Source: an uncultured Rhodocyclaceae bacterium
GTDB taxonomy: Bacteria; Pseudomonadota; Gammaproteobacteria; Burkholderiales; Rhodocyclaceae
Assembly: GCA_903930805.1 (NCBI GenBank)
Contig: CAIYZZ010000203.1
Span: 1 to 11,036 of the forward strand
Length of the DNA stretch: 11,036 nt
Direction: 5' to 3'
Positions 1 through 11,036 of the stretch are shown here, piece after piece (position 1 is the first letter of the stretch; each line of letters begins with the position of its first letter). Under the pieces are notes generated by a model. The model searched no databases, was not told the DNA's origin, and saw only the letters and a list, made by a program, of their open reading frames with translations. A program made the translations under genes and the position numbers.

Positions 1-264
1 GAGGATCGAGCTCGGATTGTTTTCGTCCTCGATGAGGAAGCGCACGATGCTGTCTTCGTCGGCCTGGGCCAAGTGTGGATGGTGCTCGCTGAAGATCTGG
101 TCGAGTCCGGCCACCTTGAGCAGCACGTCCCAGCCGAAGGCGGCATCGCGCGGCAGATCGAGCAGCACCTGCGTCGTGCTGTTGATGAAGCGCGCGGTAT
201 TTTCGGCACGCTCGAGATAGCGGCCCATCCAGTAGAGATTTTCGGCGACGCGCGAGAGCATCAT
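1..264 (-). CDS. Alpha-E domain protein, 5' part only (runs off the left edge)
   Basis: The gene starts at ATG 264-262 and stays open to base 1, giving the first 88 residues. The N-terminus, [20 protein letters not shown], is the signature opening of the alpha-E family: a mostly helical protein of roughly 310 residues with no assigned catalytic activity. It is known almost only beside circularly permuted ATP-grasp proteins and transglutaminase-like peptidases. The start overlaps the stop of the upstream ATP-grasp gene as ATGA, so translation of the two is probably coupled. A second ATG follows directly (261-259) and could be the real initiator; the difference is one residue. Family membership is read from the sequence. 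A role as partner or scaffold of the ATP-grasp enzyme is inference from gene context. Confidence 0.9.
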   Translation of the reverse strand, partial: MMLSRVAENLYWMGRYLERAENTARFINSTTQVLLDLPRDAAFGWDVLLKVAGLDQIFSEHHPHLAQADEDSIVRFLIEDENNPSSIL

Positions 265-1730
265 GCTTCCTCGGTGTTGATGATCCAGGTGTCCTTGCTG
301 CCGCCCCCCTGGGATGAATTGACGATCAGCGAACCTTCACGCAAGGCCACGCGCGTGAGCCCGCCGGTCGTAGCATAGAGCTTGTCGGACTGCAGCACGA
401 AGGGGCGCAGGTCGAGGTGGCGCGGCGCCATTTTGTCGCCGATCAAGGTCGGTGCAGTGGAGATCGAGAGCGTCGGTTGCGCCATGTAGTTGCGCGGATT
501 GGCGCGGATCAGGTCGGCGAACTGCAGGCGCTCTTCTGCGCTGGCGCGCGGCCCGATCAGCATCCCGTAGCCACCCGACTCGTTGGCCGGCTTGACGACG
601 AGCTTGTCGAGGTTGGCGAGCACATACTCGCGCTGGTCTTCAACCATGCACATGTACGAAGGCACGTTGGGCAGGATCGGATCCTGGTCGAGGTAGTACT
701 TGATGATCTGCGGCACGAAGGTATACACCACCTTGTCGTCGGCCACGCCCGCGCCCGGTGCATTGGCGATGCCGACCTTGCCGGCACGCCAGGCGCGCAT
801 CAGGCCGGGTACGCCGAGCGCAGAGTCGGGGCGGAAAGCCTCGGGATCAAGAAAGTCGTCGTCGATGCGGCGGTAGATCACATCGACGCGCCGAAGCCCG
901 GAAATCGTCTTCATGTAGACGCAGTCGTCGGCCTGGACAACGAGGTCGGAGCCCTCGACGAGGATCGCACCCATCTTCTGGGCGAGGTAGCTGTGCTCGA
1001 AATATGCCGAATTGTAGATGCCTGGTGTCAGCACGACGATCACGGGACGGTCGCCGGCTTGATTGTGACGGGGCGAGAGCGCCGCCAGCGTGTCGTAAAG
1101 CTGCGTCGGGTAGTCATCGATCGGCAGAATGTCGCTCGATTTGAATAGTTCGGGGAACAGCCGTTTCATCAGCTGGCGGTTTTCCAGCATGTAGGAAACC
1201 CCCGAGGGGACGCGCAGGTTGTCCTCGAGCACATAAACGGTGCCGTCCTTGTCGCGCACCAAATCGGTGCCGCATACGTGCGCCCACACCCCAAAGCGGG
1301 GCGTCATCCCCTTGCATTGCGCACGGAAATTTTTCGAACCTTCCAGCACTTCAATGGGGAAAATGCAGTCCCGGACGATTTTCTGCTCGTTGTAAAGATC
1401 GTCGATGAAGAGGTTGAGCGCCGTCAGGCGCTGCTTGAGGCCGGCGTCAATCCGATCCCACTCCCGGCGCGACATGGTGCGCGGGATGATGTCGAAGGGC
1501 CAGACACGGTCGATGTTGCCAGCATCGCTATACACCGTGAAGGTGATGCCCATCGCCATGATGGCAGCGTCGACACTCTCGCGACGTGCCACCAACTCGG
1601 CGGTGCCCAAGCGGTCAAGATAGCTGAACAACACACGGGAAGCCGGACGTGGTTGCCGCTGTGCGTCGAGCAACTCGTCGTAAGCATCGTTGGCGTGGGG
1701 CTGGGGGTAATTCAGCATTTCTAGTGGCAT
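261..1730 (-). CDS. Circularly permuted ATP-grasp type 2 protein (DUF404/DUF407 family)
   Basis: This 489-residue protein has the length and motifs of the circularly permuted ATP-grasp family, predicted to join a carboxylate to an amine with ATP, probably in the cytoplasm. I see the acidic block [19 protein letters not shown] (residues 167-185), the nucleotide-binding stretch [13 protein letters not shown] (378-390, Lys380 and a Gly-rich loop), HLDLRPFV (438-445) and the terminal [12 protein letters not shown] (471-482). No signal peptide or membrane segment is visible. The start chosen is ATG 1730, preceded by GGAAGAG only a few bases away; Met5 is an alternative with a poorer site. The gene leads a minus-strand unit with the alpha-E gene (ATGA overlap) and is divergent from the Anbu gene. 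The substrate is unknown. The ligase role is a family prediction, not something the sequence proves. Confidence 0.92.
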
Positions 1731-1748
1731 GGCTCTTCCGGTGTCTTT

Positions 1749-1777
1749 TCTTTACGCTGGCCTGTGCAACGCAACAA
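1749..1777 (-). promoter_or_regulatory. Possible promoter of the ATP-grasp/alpha-E unit
   Basis: Read on the minus strand, TTGTTG (1777-1772) and TAAAGA (1754-1749) are 17 bases apart, just upstream of the ATP-grasp start. Each box matches the sigma-70 consensus at only three of six positions, so this is a weak candidate supported mainly by spacing and location in the divergent gap. Confidence 0.2.
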
Positions 1778-1787
1778 ACGCGCCAGC
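1756..1787. repeat. Short inverted repeat in the divergent intergenic region
   Basis: GCTGGC (1756-1761) and GCCAGC (1782-1787) form a perfect 6-base inverted repeat with a 20-base spacer, in the middle of the 113-base gap between the two divergent arms. It could be an operator serving both directions, but a 6-base arm can easily occur by chance in a GC-rich stretch. Confidence 0.25.
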
Positions 1788-1808
1788 CCGTAAATTGGCG
1801 CAAGGGCA

Positions 1809-1814
1809 TACAAT
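1809..1814 (+). promoter_or_regulatory. Possible -10 box for the Anbu gene
   Basis: TACAAT matches the sigma-70 -10 consensus at five of six positions and lies 29 bases before the Anbu start codon. That would give a short leader of about 23 bases. No convincing -35 box lies 16-18 bases upstream, so the call is tentative and might need an activator if real. Confidence 0.3.
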
Positions 1815-1843
1815 CTACGCTATTCCTTTCAGCCACCTGCATC

Positions 1844-2623
1844 ATGACCTACTGCCTAGCCATCAATGTCAATGAAGGCCTTGTCCTTTGTACCGATTCG
1901 CGCACCAACGCGGGTACCGACAACGTCAGCGTCTATTCGAAAATGCACAACTTCGTCTGGCCCGGCGAACGCTTCTTCTCGCTGCTCTCGGCCGGCAACC
2001 TGGCTACCACACAGGCAGTCGTCAAAAAGCTCAACAGCGACATCGCCGCCGCACTGACCCCCAACTTGCTGTCGGTCAATAACATGCAGGAGGCGGCCGA
2101 CTATCTCGGCATGATCAGCACCCAGGTGCAAAAGCTGCACTCCACCCGCGACACCGGCACCACCAACTTCGAGGCCACCTTCATCTTCGCCGGGCAGATC
2201 GCCGGCCAGGCCCCGGAAGTGTTCATGGTCTACCCGCAGGGCAACTACATCCACGAATCGAATGAGCATCCCTTCCTGCAGATCGGCGAGATCAAGTACG
2301 GCAAGCCCATCCTCGACCGCGTCATCAAGCGCGACGTATTTCTCGAGCGAGCGGCGCGTTGCGCGCTGGTGTCGATGAATTCGACCATCCGCAGCAACGT
2401 CACCGTCGGCCCCCCCGTCGAACTGCTGATTTACGAACGCGACAGCCTCACCGCCGGCCGGCGCATTTACTTCAACGAAGATGATCCCTTCGCCCGCCAA
2501 CTGTCGGAGAAATGGAACGAGGGCCTGTTGATGGCTCTGCAGAACCTCCCGCGCTTTGACTGGGAAGACGCCAACAAGGATGTCGGCGGGCAACATCGGG
2601 TCGTCAATTTCCCTTCGGGCTGA
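1844..2623 (+). CDS. anbu: Anbu: proteasome-type N-terminal nucleophile hydrolase
   Basis: This 259-residue protein belongs to the Anbu family, bacterial relatives of proteasome beta subunits and HslV. The open frame extends upstream to about 1649, but I place the start at ATG 1844. That puts Thr right after Met in MTYCLAINVNEGLVLCTDSR, as needed for Thr to become the free N-terminal nucleophile. Counting from Met, Thr2, Asp18 (CTDSR) and Lys33 (YSKMH) match proteasome Thr1, Asp17 and the Lys32/33 position. A longer start would also run through the divergent promoter gap. No strong Shine-Dalgarno sequence is visible, so the start rests on family logic. Structural work on other Anbu proteins shows open helical assemblies; the natural substrate is not settled as far as I know. 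Context suggests processing or turnover of whatever the neighbouring ligases make (inference). Confidence 0.92.
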   Translation: MTYCLAINVNEGLVLCTDSRTNAGTDNVSVYSKMHNFVWPGERFFSLLSAGNLATTQAVVKKLNSDIAAALTPNLLSVNNMQEAADYLGMISTQVQKLHSTRDTGTTNFEATFIFAGQIAGQAPEVFMVYPQGNYIHESNEHPFLQIGEIKYGKPILDRVIKRDVFLERAARCALVSMNSTIRSNVTVGPPVELLIYERDSLTAGRRIYFNEDDPFARQLSEKWNEGLLMALQNLPRFDWEDANKDVGGQHRVVNFPSG

Positions 2624-2638
2624 GCTGGGCAATTTCCG

Positions 2639-2667
2639 CCGCGCAATGGTCATGCGCGGTCATGCGG
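2639..2667. repeat. Small hairpin and 10-base tandem repeat between Anbu and transglutaminase genes
   Basis: CCGCGCA (2639-2645) pairs perfectly with TGCGCGG (2653-2659) around a 7-base loop. Overlapping it, GGTCATGCGC (2648-2657) and GGTCATGCGG (2658-2667) form a tandem repeat differing at the last base. No T-run follows, so it is not a typical intrinsic terminator. It may be an mRNA processing or partial attenuation element inside the two-gene unit, or an operator. Confidence 0.4.
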
Positions 2668-2716
2668 CACGTTCGTTGCATGGGCTTGGTGTTATCCCCT
2701 TTCGTGGTCACCCTCC

Positions 2717-5700
2717 ATGTCCATTCGCGTCGCCCTCCGGCACACCACCCGCTACGCCTTTGATCGTGCCGTCAGTCTCTGGCCGCACGAGGTGCGCTTG
2801 CGCCCGGCGGCACACAGCCGCACACCTATTCACAGCTATTCGCTGAATATCGAGCCGGCCGGCCATTTTCTGAATTGGCAGCAGGATCCCTTCGGCAACT
2901 GGGTGGCGCGCCTGGTTTTCCCGGAAAAAGCCGAAGCGCTGGAAATCACCGTCGACCTGCTGGCCGACATGACGGTCATCAACCCCTTCGACTTCTTCAT
3001 CGACGAAGCTTCCGAGAAGTTTCCCTTCGAATATCCGGAAGGTTTGAAGCGCGAACTCGGCCCCTATCTCGAAGCCGACCCCGTCACGCCCTTGCTGGCC
3101 GACTGGCTGGCGCGTACCCACAAGGAGTTCCTCTGTGCGGAAATGCGCACCATCGACATGCTGGTCGGCATCAACCAGCGCGTACAGGGCGATGTCGGCT
3201 ACATCGTGCGCCTCGAAGCCGGCGTGCAGACGCCGGAAGAAACACTGGAACTCAAACGCGGCTCCTGTCGCGACTCGGCCTGGCTGCTGGTGCAGGCGCT
3301 GCGACACCTGGGCCTGGCGGCGCGCTTTGCCTCGGGCTACCTGATCCAGTTGAAGGCCGACGTCAAGGCGCTCGACGGTCCTTCCGGCACCGACCACGAC
3401 TTCACCGACCTGCATGCCTGGACGGAAGTGTTCATCCCCGGCGCCGGCTGGATCGGCCTCGATCCGACCTCGGGCCTGCTGGCCGGCGAAGGCCATATTC
3501 CGCTGGCCTGCACGGCCATGCCGTCATCAGCCGCGCCGGTCATCGGCGGCACCGAAGTCTGCGAAACGCACTTCGATTTCGCCATGCAGGTCACGCGCAT
3601 CCACGAAGACCCGCGTGTCACTCAGCCCTATACCGAAGCGCAATGGCAGGCGCTACTCGACCTCGGCCATCAGGTCGATGCCGAGCTGGCCGAGCATGAT
3701 GTGCGCCTCACCATGGGCGGCGAGCCGACCTTCGTCTCGATCGACGACATGGAGGGCGCGGAGTGGAATTACACCGCCTTGTCGGACAAAAAGCGCGAAC
3801 TGGCGGGCGATCTGCTCAAGCGCCTGCAGGGCCACTTTGCGCCAGGTGCGATGCTGCATTACGGCCAGGGCAAGTGGTATCCCGGCGAGCCGTTGCCGCG
3901 CTGGGCGCTCGGTTGCTACTGGCGCACCGACGGCAAGCCCTTGTGGAACGAACACAAGCTGCTGGTCACCACGGACGGCGCCGGCTCACAAACGACCGCA
4001 GATGCCTTGGCGTTCATCCAGCACCTGACGCACGAGCTCGGGCTCGACGCAGGCTTCGTCATTCCCGCCTTCGAAGACGTCACGCGCATCATCGACGAAG
4101 AACAGCGTTGGCCGGAGAATTTCGACCCGCTCAAGCTCGACCTGAAACAGGCCGACGAACGCCGACGCGTGGCGAAACTGATCGAACGCGGCCTCGGCGC
4201 AGCGGCTGGCTATGTACTGCCATTGAAAGCCCTGCCCTCTGCCAAAAAGAGCCGTCCCGCCAAAGCCGACTTTTCCATACGCTTCCGTTCCGGCCCGTGG
4301 CCGCTGAAGCGTGAGCACCTCTACCTGATTCCCGGTGACTCCCCGCTCGGCCTGCGCCTGCCGCTCGCCTCACTGCCTTGGGTAGCGCCCGAAGACAAGG
4401 AGGAGGAACTTGGTCGTGACCCGTTCGAAGCGCTTGAAGCCTTGCCAGAATCGGCAACAGCGGCAACGCCGGCACCGAAGAAAAAAACAGTAGCTTCCAA
4501 GTCGTCTGAAACCAAATCCGGCTATGACCCCAAGGAAATCGTACACACCGCCCTGTGCGCCGAGGTGCGCGATGGCGTGCTGTGCGTCTTCCTGCCGCCG
4601 GTGCCCTTGCTGGAAGATTTTGTCATCCTGCTGACAGCGATCGAAACCACCGCCAGTGCTTTGGCCATTCCGTTGCGGCTGGAAGGCTACACGCCACCGT
4701 CCGATCCGCGCCTCAAAGAATTCCGCATCACGCCCGACCCAGGCGTGATCGAGGTGAACATCCATCCGGCCAGTCGCTGGACACAACTGGTGGAAAACAT
4801 GCAGACGCTCTACGAAGAAGCACGCCTGACGCGGCTAGGCACCGAAAAATTCATGCTCGACGGTCGCCACACCGGCACTGGCGGCGGCAATCACGTCACG
4901 CTCGGCGCCGCCACGCCGGCCGACTCGCCCTGCCTGCGCCGGCCGGACCTGCTGATGAGCCTGATCAGCTACTGGCAGCACCACCCGGCGCTGTCCTACC
5001 TGTTCTCCGGCATGTTCATCGGCCCCACCAGCCAGGCGCCGCGCGTCGACGAGGCGCGCCACGAAAGCCTCTACGAGCTGGAGATTGCCTTCCAGCAGAT
5101 GCAGGAAAAACTAAAAGCCGGCGAAGAAAGCCTGCAACCTTGGCTTGTCGATCGCCTGTTGCGCAACCTGCTCATCGATCTCTCCGGCAATACACACCGT
5201 GCCGAGTTCTGCATCGACAAGCTGTATTCGCCTGACAGCGCGACGGGCCGGCTCGGCCTGGTCGAATTCCGCGGCTTCGAGATGCCGCCCCACGCCCAGA
5301 TGGCGCTGCTGCAGATGCTGCTGCTGCGCGCGCTGGTCGCCCGTTTCTGGCAGAAACCCTATCAGGGCAGCCTGATGCGCTGGAGCACCGAACTGCATGA
5401 CCGCTTCATGCTGCCGCACTTCGTGGCGCAGGACATGCGCGACGTCGTGCTCGACCTGCAACGCGCCGGTTACGCCTTCGAGTTCGACTGGTTCGCGCCC
5501 TTCCTCGAATTCCGCTTCCCGCGCTTTGGCACCGTCGTCTATCACGGCATCGAGATCGAGCTGCGCCAGGCCATCGAACCCTGGCATGTGCTCGGTGAAG
5601 AAGTCGGCGCTGGCGGGACGGCACGCTACGTCGATTCATCGGTCGAGCGCCTGCAGGTCAAGGTGCATCACATGCACGACACGCGCCATATCGTCACCTG

Positions 5701-6133
5701 CAACGGCCGCCCACTACCGCTGACGCCTACCGGCACACGCGGCGAGTTCGTCGCCGGCGTGCGCTACCGTGCCTGGTGCCCGCCCTCGGGGCTACACCCG
5801 ACCATCGGCGTGCAGGCACCGCTGGTGTTCGATCTGGTCGATAGCTGGAGCGGCCGCTCGATCGGCGGTTGCACCTACCACGTCGCCCACCCCGGCGGCC
5901 GCAACTACGATACTTTCCCCGTAAACGCCAACGAGGCCGAAGCACGCCGCGTTGCGCGCTTCTGGAACCACGGCCACACCGCCGGCCCGCTACACGTGCG
6001 CCGCGAAGGCCGCAACCCCGATTACCCGCTGACGCTGGATTTGCGTCGCGCACCGGAAGCATGGATGGAAGGTGAGATCTCCGTCGCCAGTGAGGTAGCG
6101 AGCGAAGTTGCCGCACCTACGCCCAAGCCTTAA
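2717..6133 (+). CDS. Transglutaminase-like peptidase fused to DUF2126 (putative amidoligase)
   Basis: A 1138-residue two-part protein. Residues 1-110 form the bacterial transglutaminase N-terminal domain (MSIRVALRHTTRYAFDR). Residues 110-265 are the papain-like core with the triad visible: Cys184 in KRGSCRDSAW, His233 in DLHAWTEVF and Asp249 in GLDPTSG. From about residue 325 (LTMGGEPTFVSIDD) to near the end is DUF2126, a family assigned to amidoligase-like enzymes, with TGTGGGNHVTLG (719-730) and RVDEARHESLYELE (776-789). An Ala/Pro/Lys/Ser-rich linker lies at about 574-601, and the C-terminal tail is low complexity. Full-length members of this fusion are usually about 1,100 residues, so it appears intact. 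No signal peptide or membrane segment is apparent. It starts 93 bases after Anbu, likely on the same transcript. A hydrolase joined to a ligase suggests that one protein trims and another part extends a peptide product (inference). The substrate is unknown. Confidence 0.93.
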   Translation: MSIRVALRHTTRYAFDRAVSLWPHEVRLRPAAHSRTPIHSYSLNIEPAGHFLNWQQDPFGNWVARLVFPEKAEALEITVDLLADMTVINPFDFFIDEASEKFPFEYPEGLKRELGPYLEADPVTPLLADWLARTHKEFLCAEMRTIDMLVGINQRVQGDVGYIVRLEAGVQTPEETLELKRGSCRDSAWLLVQALRHLGLAARFASGYLIQLKADVKALDGPSGTDHDFTDLHAWTEVFIPGAGWIGLDPTSGLLAGEGHIPLACTAMPSSAAPVIGGTEVCETHFDFAMQVTRIHEDPRVTQPYTEAQWQALLDLGHQVDAELAEHDVRLTMGGEPTFVSIDDMEGAEWNYTALSDKKRELAGDLLKRLQGHFAPGAMLHYGQGKWYPGEPLPRWALGCYWRTDGKPLWNEHKLLVTTDGAGSQTTADALAFIQHLTHELGLDAGFVIPAFEDVTRIIDEEQRWPENFDPLKLDLKQADERRRVAKLIERGLGAAAGYVLPLKALPSAKKSRPAKADFSIRFRSGPWPLKREHLYLIPGDSPLGLRLPLASLPWVAPEDKEEELGRDPFEALEALPESATAATPAPKKKTVASKSSETKSGYDPKEIVHTALCAEVRDGVLCVFLPPVPLLEDFVILLTAIETTASALAIPLRLEGYTPPSDPRLKEFRITPDPGVIEVNIHPASRWTQLVENMQTLYEEARLTRLGTEKFMLDGRHTGTGGGNHVTLGAATPADSPCLRRPDLLMSLISYWQHHPALSYLFSGMFIGPTSQAPRVDEARHESLYELEIAFQQMQEKLKAGEESLQPWLVDRLLRNLLIDLSGNTHRAEFCIDKLYSPDSATGRLGLVEFRGFEMPPHAQMALLQMLLLRALVARFWQKPYQGSLMRWSTELHDRFMLPHFVAQDMRDVVLDLQRAGYAFEFDWFAPFLEFRFPRFGTVVYHGIEIELRQAIEPWHVLGEEVGAGGTARYVDSSVERLQVKVHHMHDTRHIVTCNGRPLPLTPTGTRGEFVAGVRYRAWCPPSGLHPTIGVQAPLVFDLVDSWSGRSIGGCTYHVAHPGGRNYDTFPVNANEAEARRVARFWNHGHTAGPLHVRREGRNPDYPLTLDLRRAPEAWMEGEISVASEVASEVAAPTPKP

Positions 6134-6330: not shown

Positions 6331-6334
6331 GGAG
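6331..6334 (+). promoter_or_regulatory. Ribosome binding site that fixes the GTG start of ribBA
   Basis: GGAG lies six bases before GTG 6341. It selects that codon over upstream in-frame starts in the frame that opens near 6152, whose translated extension (Cys/Arg-rich) does not resemble the RibB family. Confidence 0.7.
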
Positions 6335-6340
6335 CCCACC

Positions 6341-7441
6341 GTGAGCATCAGCCCAGTACAAGACATCGTTAACGACATGCGCGCAGGCAAAATGGTCATC
6401 CTCGTTGACGAGGAAGATCGCGAAAACGAGGGTGATCTCGTCCTGGCCGCCGAACATGTGACCCCCGAAGCAATCAACTTCATGGCCAGGTTCGGTCGCG
6501 GCTTGATCTGCCTGACGCTCACCGAGAGCCGCTGCCGCCAGCTCGATCTACCCCTGATGGTACGCAACAACAAGGCGCCGCACGGTACCGCCTTCACCAT
6601 GTCGATCGAAGCCGCCGTGGGTGTGACCACCGGCATCTCGGCACATGATCGCTCACGCACGGTACAAGCCGCAGTCGCAAAGAATGCAAAGGCTACCGAC
6701 ATCGTTCAGCCCGGCCATATTTTTCCGCTAATGGCACAAAAGGGCGGTGTGCTGGTGCGCGCCGGCCATACCGAGGCAGGTTGCGATCTGGCCCAGATGG
6801 CGAGCTGCGAGCCAGCTGCGGTGATTTGCGAGATCCTCAAGGACGACGGCACGATGGCGCGGCTCCCCGACCTGCTGGTTTTTGCGCAGGAGCACGGGCT
6901 GAAGATCGGCACCATCCGCGACCTGATCCAGTACCGGTCCGAAAACGAAAAGCTCGTCGAATGCGTGGCTGACAAGGAAGTGATCTGCGCCCACGGCAGC
7001 TTTCGCCTGCGGGCCTTCGCTGACCGCACGTGCGGCGACGTACATCTGACTCTGAGCCGGGGTGAAATTCGCTCAGAGCTTGAAACTTTAGTGCGGGTGC
7101 ATGAGCCGGTTACCGTGCTCGACTTTCTCGATTGCGAAAGTCACCGCCATACTTTCAGCGTCGACCAGGCGATGCGGGCCATCGCCAAGGCAGGTAGCGG
7201 CGTGATCGTACTGCTGCACCGAGATGAGTCCAGTGCCAATCTGCTCAGCGCACTGAAGGCGGACGAGGATCGCCAAGCGGTGAAATGGGATCCGCGTCTT
7301 TACGGCATTGGCGCGCAGATTCTGCGCGAGCTCGGCGTCGGCAAGATGCGACTGTTGTCCAGCCCGCGCAAGATGCCGAGCATGGCGGGCTTCGGACTCG
7401 AAATCTGCGGCTATTTATCTCCAGAAGGGATCCCGTCATGA
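6341..7441 (+). CDS. ribBA: 3,4-dihydroxy-2-butanone-4-phosphate synthase with degenerate GTP cyclohydrolase II domain (RibBX type)
   Basis: This 366-residue cytoplasmic enzyme should convert ribulose 5-phosphate to 3,4-dihydroxy-2-butanone 4-phosphate and formate for riboflavin synthesis. Residues 1-205 form the RibB domain with [10 protein letters not shown] (23-32) and GHTEAGCDL (142-150), both intact. The second domain (about 210-366) follows the GTP cyclohydrolase II fold in sequence, for example [13 protein letters not shown], but lacks its active-site signatures. The three zinc cysteines align by eye to Val257, His268 and His270, and the RQEGRGIG stretch reads RDESSANL. This matches the RibBX variant described in Proteobacteria, so GTP cyclohydrolase II must be encoded elsewhere. 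The start is GTG 6341 with GGAG six bases upstream. It overlaps ribH by ATGA. Databases will probably label it RibBA or RibB. Confidence 0.92.
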
Positions 7442-7944
7442 GCTTTACCCCTAATTCGACAACACCGACGCCCAGCGGCCGCTGCACCGACCTACGCGAG
7501 ATCGAGCCGAATCTGGCAGGCGTCGGCTTGCGCATCGGTATCGTCATGGCGCGCTTCAATCGTGACGTGGGCGAAGGACTGCTCTCTGGCTGCTGCCAGG
7601 AACTACATCGCCTCGGTGTGGCATCTTCCGCTACTACCTTGGTGAGCGTGCCGGGTGCACTGGAAATCCCGCTCGCCCTGCAAACCATGGCGCAAAGCGG
7701 CAAGTACGACGCACTGGTGGCGCTCGGTTGCGTGATCCGTGGTGAGACCTATCACTTCGAGATTGTCTCGAATGAATCGGCGCGTGGCGTTACCGACGTA
7801 CAACTGACGACAGGGATCCCCATCGCCAATGCCGTGCTAACCGTAGAAAACGATGATCAGGCGCTGGTGCGCATGGCCCAAAAAGGCATGGAAGCCGCCC
7901 AGTGCGCGGTGGAAATGGTTAATCTGTTGAAAGCAGTAAAGTGA
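7438..7944 (+). CDS. ribH: 6,7-dimethyl-8-ribityllumazine synthase
   Basis: This 168-residue enzyme joins the four-carbon product of RibB with the ribitylaminouracil intermediate to give lumazine, the penultimate step to riboflavin. Lumazine synthases form pentamers or 60-mer shells. Visible motifs are [13 protein letters not shown] (37-49), [12 protein letters not shown] (71-82), the catalytic region [14 protein letters not shown] (97-110) with His106, and [11 protein letters not shown]. The N-terminal 25 or so residues are Ser/Thr/Pro-rich and poorly conserved. The ATG start overlaps the ribBA stop as ATGA and has AGAAGGGA seven bases upstream (7423-7430). Its own stop overlaps nusB as GTGA. 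Its position right after ribBA fits a ribBA-ribH-nusB unit common in Proteobacteria. Confidence 0.97.
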
Positions 7945-8429
7945 GCAGCACACCTGTGGAACGAGGCAAGGCCGGCAGCGGCAAGCCACCGAGTTCCCCG
8001 CGCCATCGTGCGCGCGAGTTCGTCGTGCAAGGGCTCTATCAATATCTGGTCGGCGGTCAGGATGCTGCGGCCATCATCACCCAAGCAGAGTCGGCCGGCG
8101 GTTTCGATCGTGCCAACCGCGCGCTTTACGATGCCCTGCTCGATGGTGTGCTGAATAACACTGCGACCTTGCAGGTGCTGCTCGAACCCCATATCGAACG
8201 TCCCTGGGCCGAGGTTTCGCCCATTGAACGCGGCATCCTGCTCCTGGCAGCCTGCGAACTTCAGTTTCACCCCGACACCCCCTACCGCGTGGTCATTAAC
8301 GAAGCCATCGAACTGACCAAATCTTACGGTGGCACCGACGGCTACAAGTTCGTCAATGGCGTGCTGGACAAGTTGGCCCCCCAGTTACGGCCACACGAGT
8401 TGCGTCCGGACGCAAGCAACGCCCGATAG
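7941..8429 (+). CDS. nusB: Transcription antitermination factor NusB
   Basis: This 162-residue, mainly helical RNA-binding protein pairs with NusE (S10) on boxA RNA to support antitermination, chiefly of rRNA operons. Recognisable stretches are [17 protein letters not shown] (20-36), [15 protein letters not shown] (about 92-106), [16 protein letters not shown] and the closing [15 protein letters not shown]. It has a Ser/Pro/Lys-rich extension of about 20 residues before the conserved core, and a short polar tail. The start is GTG 7941, overlapping the ribH stop as GTGA; no strong Shine-Dalgarno site is evident, so coupling to ribH translation is likely. Linkage of nusB to ribH is widespread in bacteria. 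Confidence 0.96.
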
Positions 8430-8444
8430 TCTCACCCACGCGGC

Positions 8445-9389
8445 ATGCCCTCCGAGTTTGCCCTGATCGACCGTTATTTTCGCCATCCCACCCGGCATAC
8501 CGTGCTCGGCGTCGGCGACGACGGCGCCATCGTGCACGCGACTGCCGGTTGCGAACTGGTAGTGTCGACCGACATGCTGGTGGCTGACACACACTTTCTG
8601 GCCGACACCGACCCGGAAGATCTCGGCTGGAAAACGTTGGCGGTGAATGTGTCGGACATGGCGGCGATGGGCGCGCAACCACGCTGGGCACTGCTGGCTG
8701 CCGCGCTGCCGACGGCAACGGAATCATGGATTGAGAAATTCGCTCGCGGTTTTTTTGCTTGCGCCGATACGTTCGGCATCGATGTCATCGGCGGCGATAC
8801 GACCAAGGGGCCGCGCAATTTCTGCGTAACGATCTTTGGCGAAGTACCGGCGGGTAAAGCGCTGCTACGCTCGGGGGCACGCAACGGTGATGAAATCTGG
8901 GTGTCTGGCGCACCCGGTCGTGCCGCCTTGGGGTTGGCGCATCTGCAGGGCCGCATCACGCTGGCCGAACCGGCGCTTGCCTATTGCCTGGCCGCCTTGC
9001 ATCGCCCCCAGCCACGCATCGCACTCGGGCTGGCGCTACGGGATATCGCCACGGCAGCTATCGATGTGTCCGACGGTCTGTTGGCAGACCTCAGTCACAT
9101 TCTCAAAGCTTCAGGCGTCGCCGCCAAGCTGAAAGTTGCCGTCCCGCCAGCGCCGACTTTTGTTGATACCAATCTGTGGCGCGACTGTTATCTGGCCGGC
9201 GGCGACGACTATGAGCTCGTCTTTACTACTCCGGCAGCACAGCACACAAACATCCAGTCACTCATCGCGGGTCTGCCACTGACCTGCATTGGCACTATCG
9301 AGATCGGTACCCCGGGCCAATGGACGCTTTTCGATGCCGCCGGCCGGCCCATGGAAACCGCACGGCGCGGCTACGACCACTTCGCGTAA
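8445..9389 (+). CDS. thiL: Thiamine-monophosphate kinase
   Basis: This 314-residue enzyme phosphorylates thiamine monophosphate to thiamine diphosphate with ATP and Mg2+, the last step of the pathway in the cytoplasm. It belongs to the AIR synthase/PurM-like superfamily. Motifs in order: GVGDDGA (22-28), STDMLVADTHF (41-51), NVSDMAAMGAQPRW (68-81), GGDTTKGP (116-123), DVSDGLLADL (centred on Asp210) and GGDDYELVF (252-260). Length is normal. It begins 15 bases after nusB and ends nine bases before pgpA; the ribosome binding site is weak, so it is probably translated as part of the cluster. Bases 9137-9161 carry one copy of a 25-base repeat also found in cinA, here read as VAVPPAPTF in a variable part of the protein. 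Confidence 0.97.
   Translation: MPSEFALIDRYFRHPTRHTVLGVGDDGAIVHATAGCELVVSTDMLVADTHFLADTDPEDLGWKTLAVNVSDMAAMGAQPRWALLAAALPTATESWIEKFARGFFACADTFGIDVIGGDTTKGPRNFCVTIFGEVPAGKALLRSGARNGDEIWVSGAPGRAALGLAHLQGRITLAEPALAYCLAALHRPQPRIALGLALRDIATAAIDVSDGLLADLSHILKASGVAAKLKVAVPPAPTFVDTNLWRDCYLAGGDDYELVFTTPAAQHTNIQSLIAGLPLTCIGTIEIGTPGQWTLFDAAGRPMETARRGYDHFA
9137..9161 (+). repeat. 25-base direct repeat, copy 1 (inside thiL)
   Basis: This stretch matches 10287-10311 at 24 of 25 bases; the difference is C at 9145 against T at 10295. The shared core is GCCAGCGCCGACTTTT. The copies start 1,150 bases apart, point the same way and are read in different frames, so protein similarity cannot explain the match. 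Confidence 0.85.
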
Positions 9390-9398
9390 GCTGCCAGC

Positions 9399-9902
9399 AT
9401 GGCGAAAGCTCCAGCCCCACCCTTTTCTTTCCTGTTGCGTCACCCCGCCCATCTGATCGCCTGCGGCTTCGGCAGTGGGCTGGCGCCGTTCGCGCCTGGA
9501 ACTGCCGGCACCGCGTTCGCCTGGCTGACCTATCCGTTCCTGCGCACTTGGCTGCCCGACGACACAAGCTTCGCGGTTTTTCTGCTGCTGGCCTTCGCAC
9601 TCGGCGTCACCGCTTGCCAGATCACCGGCCGCGCGCTGGGCGTCGTCGACCATGGCAGCATCGTCTGGGACGAGATCGTGCCGTTCTGGGCGGTGCTGTT
9701 CCTGACGCCCGCCGGCTGGATGTGGCAGCTCGCCGCATTTTTGTGGTTCCGCATCTACGACATCAGCAAACCGGCACCGGCAGATTATTTCGACGGCAAG
9801 GTGAAAAATGGTTTCGGCGTAATGATGGACGATGTGATTGCCGCCGCCTACACGGTGCTGACGCTGGCAGTGTTCAAGGCATTGGTGGAGCGATTGTTCT
9901 GA
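9399..9902 (+). CDS. pgpA: Phosphatidylglycerophosphatase A
   Basis: This 167-residue membrane enzyme removes phosphate from phosphatidylglycerophosphate to give phosphatidylglycerol. Family motifs are GFGSGLAPFAPGTAGT (23-38), DHGSIVWDEIVPFW (84-97) and RIYDISKPAP (118-127) followed by YFDGKVKNGFGVMMDD (130-145), which contain the conserved acidic residues. Hydrophobic segments at about 57-75, 95-117 and 145-163 are likely membrane helices. Compared from memory with typical PgpA, some usual glycines are replaced (WDEIVG by WDEIVP, GGFG by NGFG, DDVIAG by DDVIAA); the acidic residues remain, so activity is still expected. It lies nine bases after thiL and overlaps cinA by one base (TGATG). 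The thiL-pgpA pairing is common in Proteobacteria. Confidence 0.95.
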   Translation: MAKAPAPPFSFLLRHPAHLIACGFGSGLAPFAPGTAGTAFAWLTYPFLRTWLPDDTSFAVFLLLAFALGVTACQITGRALGVVDHGSIVWDEIVPFWAVLFLTPAGWMWQLAAFLWFRIYDISKPAPADYFDGKVKNGFGVMMDDVIAAAYTVLTLAVFKALVERLF

Positions 9903-10396
9903 TGGATACCGAACTTGTTGAATTGTCGGCCGCAGTTGGGACGGTGTGCCGTGAGCGCCAACTGCTGATTGCCACGGCGGAATCCTGCACTGGCGGTTGG
10001 GCATCCCAAGTGATCACCCATACAGCGGGCAGCTCGGCGTGGTTTGAGCGCGGCTTCGTAACCTATACAAATGAAGCAAAAACGGATATGCTTGGTGTTC
10101 TGTTGGACACCATAGCAACATTCGGTGCGGTCAGCGTCGAAACGGCGGGTGAAATGGCCAGTGGGGCACTGAAAAATTCCAATGCCTTGATTTCTTTGGC
10201 TATCACGGGAATTGCCGGGCCGACGGGTGGCTCACCTGACAAACCAGTGGGTACCGTATGCTTTGCTTGGTGTGTTCGTAATGAGGTGCCGTCCTGCCAG
10301 CGCCGACTTTTTTCGGGCGACCGGGAAACCATCCGGCGCCAGTCGGTGATTTATGCGCTTACTGGCTTGATTGGACGCGCAAGAAACATGCCATAA
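9902..10396 (+). CDS. pncC: CinA-family nicotinamide-nucleotide amidohydrolase (PncC)
   Basis: This 164-residue protein matches the stand-alone C-terminal domain of CinA, which deamidates nicotinamide mononucleotide to nicotinate mononucleotide in NAD salvage. Visible motifs are ATAESCTGGW (24-33, with the presumed nucleophile Ser28), GFVTYTNEAKTDMLGV (51-66, Tyr55 and Lys60), AITGIAGPTGG (100-110) and LFSGDRETIRRQ (136-147). The N-terminal molybdopterin-binding-like domain of long CinA is absent, as is usual for the proteobacterial short form. ATG 9902 overlaps the pgpA stop as TGATG. The middle is less GC-rich than its neighbours: I count 93 G or C in 180 bases at 10021-10200. Its codons 129-138 contain the second copy of the 25-base repeat. 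Its stop codon overlaps the likely recA -10 box. Linkage of cinA to recA is widespread. Confidence 0.94.
   Translation: MDTELVELSAAVGTVCRERQLLIATAESCTGGWASQVITHTAGSSAWFERGFVTYTNEAKTDMLGVLLDTIATFGAVSVETAGEMASGALKNSNALISLAITGIAGPTGGSPDKPVGTVCFAWCVRNEVPSCQRRLFSGDRETIRRQSVIYALTGLIGRARNMP
10287..10311 (+). repeat. 25-base direct repeat, copy 2 (inside cinA)
   Basis: This is the partner of 9137-9161, identical at 24 of 25 bases. Here it is read as codons 129-138, PSCQRRLF, just before the conserved FSGDR motif, in a different frame from the thiL copy. Confidence 0.85.
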
Positions 10397-10397
10397 T
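10367..10397 (+). promoter_or_regulatory. Probable recA promoter inside the end of cinA
   Basis: CATAAT (10392-10397) matches the -10 consensus at five of six positions and overlaps the cinA stop codon (TAA 10394-10396). Possible -35 boxes are TTGATT (10367-10372, 19-base spacer) and TTGGAC (10371-10376, 15-base spacer); neither spacing is ideal. Transcription would begin near 10404, leaving a leader of about 20 bases. I find no CTGT-N8-ACAG LexA box from 10200 to the recA start. Confidence 0.4.
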
Positions 10398-10410
10398 CGG
10401 AACAACATTC

Positions 10411-10418
10411 AGGAAGGA
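10411..10418 (+). promoter_or_regulatory. Strong ribosome binding site of recA
   Basis: AGGAAGGA lies five bases before ATG 10424. It is among the strongest Shine-Dalgarno sequences in the window, fitting high RecA synthesis independent of translation of the upstream cluster. Confidence 0.8.
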
Positions 10419-10423
10419 ATATC

Positions 10424-11036
10424 ATGGACGAGAACAAGACCAAGGCCCTGCAAGCGGCACTGGCGCAAATCGAAAAACAATTCGGCAAAGGCTCCATCAT
10501 GAAGATGGGTGAAGGTCTTGCTATCGACGACATCCAGACCGTCTCCACCGGTTCGCTCGGGCTGGACATTGCGCTCGGCATTGGCGGCCTGCCACGCGGT
10601 CGGGTGGTGGAAATCTACGGCCCGGAATCGTCGGGCAAAACCACACTGTGCCTGCATATCGTCGCCGAAATCCAGAAGGCAGGCGGTGTCGCCGCCTACA
10701 TCGATGCAGAAAACGCACTCGACCCGGGTTACGCCGCCAAACTGGGCGTGAACGTGCCCGATCTGCTCATCTCTCAGCCCGACACAGGTGAGCAGGGCCT
10801 CGAGATTACCGACATGCTGGTGCGTTCGGGTGGCATCGATCTGATCGTCATCGATTCGGTAGCAGCATTGACACCCAAGGCGGAAATCGAGGGAGAAATG
10901 GGCGACCAACTGCCTGGCCTGCAGGCCCGCCTGATGTCGCAAGCGCTGCGCAAGCTCACCTCCAACATCAAGCGCACCAATACGCTGGTGATCTTCATCA
11001 ACCAGATCCGCATGAAGATTGGTGTGATGTTTGGCA
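10424..11036 (+). CDS. recA: Recombinase A, 5' part only (runs off the right edge)
   Basis: The first 204 residues of RecA, the ATP-dependent strand-exchange protein and LexA co-protease activator, are present; the family is usually about 340-350 residues, so the rest lies beyond the window. The N-terminal filament segment ([20 protein letters not shown]) is followed by Walker [10 protein letters not shown] (66-74), the catalytic Glu96, Walker B LIVIDS, loop L1 around [10 protein letters not shown], and [12 protein letters not shown] entering loop L2. Numbering matches E. coli RecA. Residue 97, next to the catalytic Glu, is Asn (codon AAC at 10712-10714), where His is usual (DAEHALDP). No stop or frameshift is seen. 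The gene follows cinA by 27 bases with its own strong ribosome binding site. Confidence 0.98.

Follow-up and report, generated by a model that had tools for sequence, protein, structure and literature searches.

Gene content of the locus

The Anbu/amidoligase cluster is described here as it occurs in an 11,036-nucleotide stretch of DNA from an uncultured Rhodocyclaceae bacterium, which in its full length is termed the window and corresponds to contig C203 of a genome bin of 558 contigs and 3.25 Mb (95.08% complete, 5.69% contaminated). Four families are present, namely a circularly permuted ATP-grasp ligase, the alpha-E protein, the proteasome-like Ntn hydrolase Anbu and a transglutaminase-like cysteine hydrolase fused to the domain DUF2126 (TG-DUF2126), and they are arranged as two arms, with alpha-E and ATP-grasp to the left and Anbu and TG-DUF2126 to the right of a 113-base gap (Table 1). 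The locus is a member of a published cluster, and its kind is not new. The best-supported additions made by the present comparison are that ATP-grasp and alpha-E form a unit never seen apart and that the ligase arms (ATP-grasp/alpha-E and TG-DUF2126) often carry sigma54-type promoter matches and Anbu mostly not, which suggests that the bond-building half of the system may be switched on when nitrogen is short.

Computation covered the genes present, their predicted folds and conserved catalytic residues, the co-occurrence of the families and the promoter matches. The scores for PF04168, PF14403 and PF09899 all lie far above the Pfam cut-offs, so that these matches are not due to chance, and the start of alpha-E overlaps the stop of ATP-grasp by 4 bases (261-264). 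A sequence-only reading of the same DNA had described four genes, intact or edge-cut, in two arms around the gap, a description that Pfam matches and coordinates bear out; its assignment of two ligase-type and two hydrolase-type folds is supported as well.

Table 1. Features of the cluster and its flanks, with positions counted along the window.
Feature	Position	Strand	Evidence and remarks
alpha-E, N-terminal 88 codons	1..264	-	PF04168, 92.3 bits, profile positions 1-81 of 294; gene cut by contig end
Circularly permuted ATP-grasp ligase	261..1730	-	CP_ATPgrasp_2 PF14403, 543.4 bits, full length; PDB 3n6x, E 4.5e-153
Gap separating the two arms	1731..1843		113 bases
Sigma54-type -24/-12 match TGGCGCGTTTGTTGCG	1770..1785	-	39 bases upstream of ATP-grasp start; score 14.1; 2 mismatches to pattern
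Anbu, proteasome-like Ntn hydrolase	1844..2623	+	Proteasome PF00227, 23.5 bits (cut-off 22.4); PDB 5loy, E 2.7e-73
Sigma54-type match CGGCACGTTCGTTGCA	2665..2680	+	36 bases upstream of TG-DUF2126; score 14.8; 1 mismatch
Transglutaminase-like cysteine hydrolase fused to DUF2126	2717..6133	+	Bact_transglu_N, Transglut_core, DUF2126 PF09899, 1339.7 bits

Sigma54-type promoter matches

Relatives were gathered in two sets. Set 1 comprises 80 loci on named contigs, being the best 80 of 592 TG-DUF2126 matches, and set 2 comprises 51 loci fetched from 50 genomes (G086 twice); one genome is common to both (L133 = L061), and the window's own genome is in neither. The threshold for a match in the relatives was the 95th percentile of the controls, that of set 1 being carried over to set 2, while genes too near the end of a stretch were dropped and set 1 genes without an upstream neighbour were counted as internal. 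Starts of open reading frames (ORFs) were taken as the longest possible, and promoter distances are therefore rough.

Among all positions of the window, on both strands, the two best matches are found at 2665 (+) and 1770 (-). For a zone chosen after looking, namely the 150 bases that precede ATP-grasp, Anbu or TG-DUF2126 in the correct orientation, the probability that chance would place both matches there is about 4e-4. In set 1, a match precedes 19/33 lead ATP-grasp genes (reverse strand 1/33) and 13/43 lead TG-DUF2126 genes (2/43), as compared with 1/7 lead Anbu genes and 23/450 control lead genes (21/450). Among non-lead genes of this set, it is found in 2/33 TG-DUF2126 and 0/35 alpha-E, and the long ATP-grasps described below have none, neither as non-lead (0/29) nor as lead genes (0/19). 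The pattern recurs in set 2, where matches were counted for 16/37 lead ATP-grasp (reverse strand 2/37), 6/18 lead TG-DUF2126 (1/18), 1/27 lead Anbu (3/27) and 10/212 control lead genes (8/212), and for 2/13 ATP-grasp and 1/40 alpha-E genes classed as non-lead. When the lead genes of both sets are pooled, the figures become 35/70 for ATP-grasp, 19/61 for TG-DUF2126, 2/34 for Anbu and 33/662 for the controls.

Palindromes resembling NtrC sites are mildly enriched upstream of 64 sigma54-type sites (p 0.0035; p-values here treat genomes and loci as independent), and 26.6% of these sites, the two of the window included, reach or exceed the control 95th percentile. The gene for sigma54 (rpoN) is encoded in the window's genome.

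Co-occurrence and gene order

The distribution of the families was surveyed in 168 genomes drawn from the class, with completeness of at least 90%. ATP-grasp and alpha-E are each found in 51 genomes, and the 51 are identical. DUF2126 is present in 32 genomes, all inside these 51, and PF08379 scores above its cut-off in 38, again all inside, a 39th genome having a sub-cut-off match with stop codons. Anbu is found in 43, of which 41 lie inside the 51 (intactness was checked for only part of the 41); the other two matches, both from one genus, are truncated genes with a remnant of ATP-grasp next to them (L138:4092-4649, minus strand; L139:4142-4729, plus strand), which looks like joint decay of the cluster. 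Among the 51 genomes with the pair, 10 have no Anbu and 19 no DUF2126, which makes both accessories. The core is ATP-grasp with alpha-E, a unit never seen apart, and the other families are accessories not seen to persist without it. Independent occurrence of the families, which the sequence-only reading had named as a refuting observation, was thus not seen for ATP-grasp and alpha-E in the 168 genomes.

In set 2, ATP-grasp is followed by alpha-E as a same-strand neighbour in 44 of the 51 loci under a strict gap rule, with a median gap of 0 bases, and in the remaining 7 the domain coordinates likewise show the two adjoining each other. In 25 of the 51 stretches there was a transglutaminase of a kind covered by the profile used.

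Two ATP-grasp types and the fused copy

A type-1 ATP-grasp (at least 45% identity to that of the window) is carried by 47 of the 80 set 1 loci and a type-2 ATP-grasp (<45%) by 54, with both in 34; neither is found in 13, and 9 of these 13 span less than 23 kb. In 48 loci, for example at L064:13491-15956, ATP-grasp occupies one long frame that exceeds 700 residues and usually has around 850. By BLAST over the 80 loci, 36 frames match both ATP-grasp and alpha-E, and Pfam confirmed two domains in all three that were tested. When the 48 long type-2 proteins are set against 39 type-1 proteins (from which L026, a cut type-2 copy, was excluded), nearly all have lost the conserved residue at 169, 171, 331-333, 386, 388, 389, 438, 440 and 471, and they keep R287, D295, K380, R442 and D480 among others. 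Judged from the roles of these positions in the family, the long type-2 ATP-grasps would have lost ATP or metal binding, and the long fused form is possibly a pseudo-ligase.

Folds and catalytic residues

Crystal structures exist for Anbu and for a relative of the ATP-grasp protein (5loy and 3n6x, respectively). All five PDB sequence matches of the window's Anbu are Anbu structures, the best being a designed Anbu, and the residues Thr1/Asp17/Lys32 are present in the window; 49 of the 50 aligned rows have the same residues, and the remaining row is a gap. The catalytic set C184/H233/D249 of the transglutaminase is invariant in 47/47 rows. In the ATP-grasp protein, E169, N171, D331-D332-K333, GGYG 386-389, H438, D440 and N471 are each among the residues that 97% or more of the 39 type-1 relatives conserve. 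The nearest ATP-grasp folds, for which the query model was the fused relative L064 and not the window protein, include eukaryotic glutathione synthetases, YgiC/YjfC and the E-64 ligase Cp1B.

No PDB sequence matched TG-DUF2126 at E 0.001, and a structure model predicts a glutamine-synthetase fold for DUF2126. Its residues E336, E679, H726, E850 and R852 are invariant in 47 rows and, to judge by their order along the sequence, may correspond to the metal-binding ligands of glutamine synthetase.

Short-peptide search and further candidate partner families

A short peptide gene always nearby had been named by the sequence-only reading as something to look for, and it is not supported: among 899 ORFs of 15-99 codons, mostly outside longer ORFs and at most 1.5 kb from core genes in 78 loci plus the window, the largest cluster covers 4 loci, three of them in Marinomonas. 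Of these 79 stretches, 74 had any such ORF; L035 and L039, with no core ORF in the set, were left out. No short ORF of the window's 113-base gap clusters with one from L051, a gammaproteobacterial locus with the same gene layout as the window.

Two further families were followed. A zinc-ribbon metallopeptidase (PF15887+PF10005) lies near alpha-E, Anbu or TG-DUF2126 at L095:3939-4976 (minus strand) and 17 other loci, so that a PF15887 homologue stands beside the cluster in 18/131 loci. Full-length PF15887 matches occur in 22/168 genomes, all 22 inside the 51 ATP-grasp genomes, and partial ones in 7 further genomes, 6 of them outside; there are 29 genomes at E 0.001 and 26 above the cut-off, and the full-length line was drawn after the scores were seen. 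A literature search by the names PF15887 and PF10005 showed nothing on an association with the cluster among the matches listed. The second family, of 410 residues, is found in 12/168 genomes (in one of them in two pieces), all inside the 51, and in 16/131 loci (L114:3696-4931, minus strand, and L005, L010, L012, L014, L026, L034, L038, L046, L071, L096, L106, L117, L121, L124 and L128). Nothing matched it above cut-off in Pfam or NCBIfam (best Glyoxalase_4, E 0.054, and YecM, E 0.13), and PDB searches with a single sequence (E 1) and with a profile (E 10) were likewise without a match. Its invariant residues are H225, H313, H314 and E372, a His/His/Glu pattern that, as a motif, might point to a vicinal-oxygen-chelate dioxygenase. 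Neither family was found in the window's own genome.

Genomic context of the window

Downstream of the cluster, at 6332-11035, run ribBA, ribH, nusB, thiL, pgpA, cinA and recA, of which thiL and recA were labelled by reading the translations. Another contig of the assembly, C242, ends in an alpha-E gene cut at the opposite end, which has a 163-base overlap with the window (87% DNA identity) and adjoins a gene read as ribE (riboflavin synthase). Because the cuts are reciprocal, the ends overlap and ribE fits the ribBA-ribH side of the window, C242 probably carries the missing part of the window's alpha-E. The simplest picture would be a cluster inserted between ribE and ribBA in an assembly broken by strain differences; a second copy would be the less likely alternative. 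The second gene from the cut alpha-E on C242 (L084:4406-6187) encodes an N-acetylglutaminylglutamine amidotransferase (TIGR03104, 963.6 bits, cut-off 570.1).

The locus also looks like a mosaic when compared with the best 80 of 592 matches. ATP-grasp (84%) and Anbu (81%) are nearest to the gammaproteobacterial L051, and TG-DUF2126 is nearest to the Rhodocyclales locus L004 (85%), in which ATP-grasp and Anbu reach only 52% and 42% identity to those of the window. The alpha-E piece is 69% identical to L051 and 71% to L064.

Relation to known systems and published nitrogen control

An Anbu operon of ATP-grasp, alpha-E, transglutaminase and Anbu has been described by Valas and Bourne in 2008 and Iyer et al. 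in 2009, as cited in PMC5666114 and PMC6376114 (here and below, cited papers are represented by those portions of their text that were consulted), and the family association stated by the sequence-only reading is thereby supported. The window shares all four families, the adjacency of ATP-grasp and alpha-E and the Anbu residues Thr1/Asp17/Lys32 with this operon; it differs in that its transglutaminase is fused to DUF2126 and its Anbu lies on the arm opposite ATP-grasp. That no substrate is established likewise agrees with the literature consulted, and what Anbu and its neighbours do in the physiology of the cell is treated as an open question in the available text of PMC5666114 and PMC6376114.

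Nitrogen control of the Anbu/amidoligase cluster is already known. In Burkholderia cenocepacia, the genes I35_5080-5083 (DUF404/407, DUF403, a transglutaminase and a large transglutaminase) are NtrC and sigma54 dependent, with log2 changes of -8.2, -9.4, -9.4 and -6.0 in an ntrC mutant, and are listed among the common sigma54/NtrC targets (PMC5491218). We read DUF404/407 as ATP-grasp, DUF403 as alpha-E and the large transglutaminase as the DUF2126 fusion; unlike the window, that cluster has two separate transglutaminase genes, and Anbu is not named in the consulted part of the paper. The cluster PP_2685-2688 of Pseudomonas putida resembles the window in its proteasome beta-like protein, transglutaminase, hypothetical gene and ATP-grasp (PMC7801951, PMC8050072); it differs in that the transglutaminase is not described with DUF2126 in the portions consulted, and PP_2687 would be alpha-E. 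Nitrogen depletion induces the promoter of its ATP-grasp gene 3.7-fold, and its Anbu promoter is nitrogen-agnostic (PMC8050072). Taken together, the Burkholderia data agree with sigma54/NtrC control, and those from Pseudomonas are mixed. A family-wide promoter comparison separating the ligase arms from Anbu was not found in the literature searched, a 2025 sigma54 survey being the nearest (PMC12316311).

Three other systems were encountered. In Bradyrhizobium, an ATP-grasp gene with a sigma54 site has been reported, which the portion consulted does not identify as belonging to this ATP-grasp family (PMC13207237), and the Caulobacter transglutaminase homologue hvyA, from an NtrC paper, was set aside without comparison. 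The Rlo system of Pseudomonas aeruginosa combines an ATP-grasp protein with an inactive membrane transglutaminase and aspartic proteases, and since alpha-E is not mentioned in the part available, it was judged a parallel and not a relative (PMC12239564). The gene names sought in two papers on nitrogen in mycobacteria did not occur there.

Interpretation and alternatives

The locus is best read as a nitrogen-starvation amide-ligation system in which the ligase arms are under sigma54 and Anbu mostly is not, a reading to which we give a probability of about 0.48. When nitrogen is short, an NtrC-type activator together with the sigma54 RNA polymerase would turn on the ATP-grasp/alpha-E and TG-DUF2126 arms. 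ATP-grasp, with alpha-E as its obligatory partner, would activate a carboxylate with ATP and join it to an amine; the glutamine-synthetase-fold domain DUF2126 would form a second amide bond, of glutamyl type; the fused transglutaminase-like cysteine domain would open or transfer a glutamyl-type bond; and Anbu, mostly outside the shared promoter, would cleave or trim the product. In its favour, earlier work has shown NtrC-dependent expression of a cluster with ATP-grasp, alpha-E, a transglutaminase and a large transglutaminase, a nitrogen-responsive ATP-grasp promoter and, for the activity of an ATP-grasp from this family, phosphate release from ATP only. We infer that the product is an amide, how the enzymes divide the work, and the class of substrate, for which a small amine or peptide serving as nitrogen source seems to us likelier than a protein tag. 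The sequence-only reading had proposed ligases that build and hydrolases that trim or remove a small peptide or tag; its association and folds stand, a peptide gene always nearby is not supported, and it had overlooked both the sigma54-type matches before the two arms and the published nitrogen control.

A number of observations weigh against this reading. Two intragenic sites of the window score 13.97 and 13.6, close to the 14.8 and 14.1 of the best matches, so that the placement of the latter, and not their score, is telling; the matrix weights themselves are approximations. Half of the lead ATP-grasp and two thirds of the lead TG-DUF2126 genes have no sigma54 match, and set 1 ATP-grasp genes classed as non-lead still match in 4/10. 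The surroundings of the window's two matches show no NtrC-like site, scoring 3.9 and 0.7 against a control median of 3.7, and in the window's genome no NtrC was found above the model cut-off (best NtrC-family match 435.7 against 558.6), for which reasons NtrC itself is unproven there. Confidence in the TG-DUF2126 model is middling (pLDDT 73.8), and the bin is contaminated at the level given above. Other points concern the independence of Anbu, which we take to be COG3484. The 2025 survey of sigma54 has COG3484 as enriched (PMC12316311), and in P. putida Anbu mRNA rises by log2 4.44 on nitrate versus ammonium (PMC8050072) and appears with 11.1 in a nutrient-limitation table (PMC3325844), with a change of just 1.12-fold in a third study (PMC7801951); the mRNA rise and the enrichment speak against an uncoupling of Anbu from the ligase arms. 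In a P. putida rpoN mutant, moreover, PP_2686-2688 are still up 14- to 20-fold under nitrogen limitation, as are the urt genes (PMC7801951). At the biochemical level, the Yersinia bercovieri ATP-grasp of this family sets phosphate free from ATP, but neither glutamate nor glutamine nor Anbu enhanced this release, and the authors could not tell ligation from hydrolysis (PMC6376114).

Among the alternatives, the biosynthesis of a small amide-linked metabolite (an osmolyte, or a storage or signalling peptide) during nitrogen stress, which the hydrolases would edit or recycle, survives best and is nevertheless unlikely. The fold relatives named above speak for it, and YgiC and YjfC have been called peptidylpolyamine synthetases (PMC12568646); among known systems, glutathionylspermidine synthetase/amidase and the eukaryotic glutathione synthetases come close but differ in reaching only 9-13% identity in structural alignments, again with L064 and not the window protein as query. 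A nitrogen-rich store built under nitrogen starvation would, however, be odd. No neighbour family read as a transporter or tailoring enzyme was seen in more than 5 of the 80 loci, from the first 90 residues of each, and the metallopeptidase and the 410-residue family stand in 18/131 and 16/131.

A tagging system akin to pupylation, in which the glutamine-synthetase-fold ligase and ATP-grasp tag proteins and Anbu degrades or untags them, recycling amino acids in nitrogen starvation, is likewise unlikely. Such tagging has been proposed before (PMC6376114), PafA, the ligase for Pup, is an enzyme of the glutamine-synthetase/gamma-glutamyl-ligase class, and Mycobacterium smegmatis benefits from its Pup-proteasome system when nitrogen is limiting (PMC8223512). 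The parallel to a glutamine-synthetase-class ligase with a proteasome-fold hydrolase lies in the fold predicted for DUF2126 and in Anbu as a proteasome homologue. The window differs by its extra ATP-grasp, alpha-E and transglutaminase, and a Pup-like gene was not found nearby, no short ORF being conserved in more than 4 of the loci searched, although one at a distance is conceivable. Furthermore, Anbu is missing from 10/51 systems and has a sigma54 match at just 2/34 lead genes, it is without partner ATPase according to PMC5666114, and Yersinia Anbu had no detected activity on three proteasome substrates and retained no specific partner as bait in a pull-down (PMC6376114).

General protein turnover, in which Anbu, fed or regulated by the other enzymes, would break down proteins when nitrogen runs out, was suggested from nitrogen induction in P. 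putida (PMC5666114, PMC7801951) and is very unlikely here: ATP-grasp/alpha-E occurs without Anbu in 10 genomes, the sole two Anbu matches without the pair are truncated genes, no neighbour cluster in at least 4 loci was read as an unfoldase, and the lack of detected peptidase activity just cited applies equally. That the genes are neighbours without common function, to which the nearness of TG-DUF2126 to Rhodocyclales and of ATP-grasp and Anbu to a gammaproteobacterial set (best 80 of 592 matches) might lend colour, is hardly credible in view of the identical 51-genome distribution and nesting, the fusions and the joint decay in two genomes, and is already refuted for ATP-grasp with alpha-E.

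To return to the nitrogen-starvation ligation system, a wider version can be drawn, which in its entirety is doubtful. It would be a widespread ATP-driven amide conjugation pathway winning nitrogen from amines or peptides, with ATP-grasp and alpha-E as the indivisible unit, the second fused copy, its motif residues lost, as a regulatory pseudo-ligase, PF15887 and the 410-residue family as members, and sigma54 controlling the ligase half and not Anbu.

Should the response to nitrogen starvation indeed include the ligase arms as a conserved part, with Anbu as an accessory, the question would shift from what Anbu degrades to what ATP-grasp and alpha-E join under nitrogen shortage, and the inducing condition for metabolomics and pull-downs would thereby be named.

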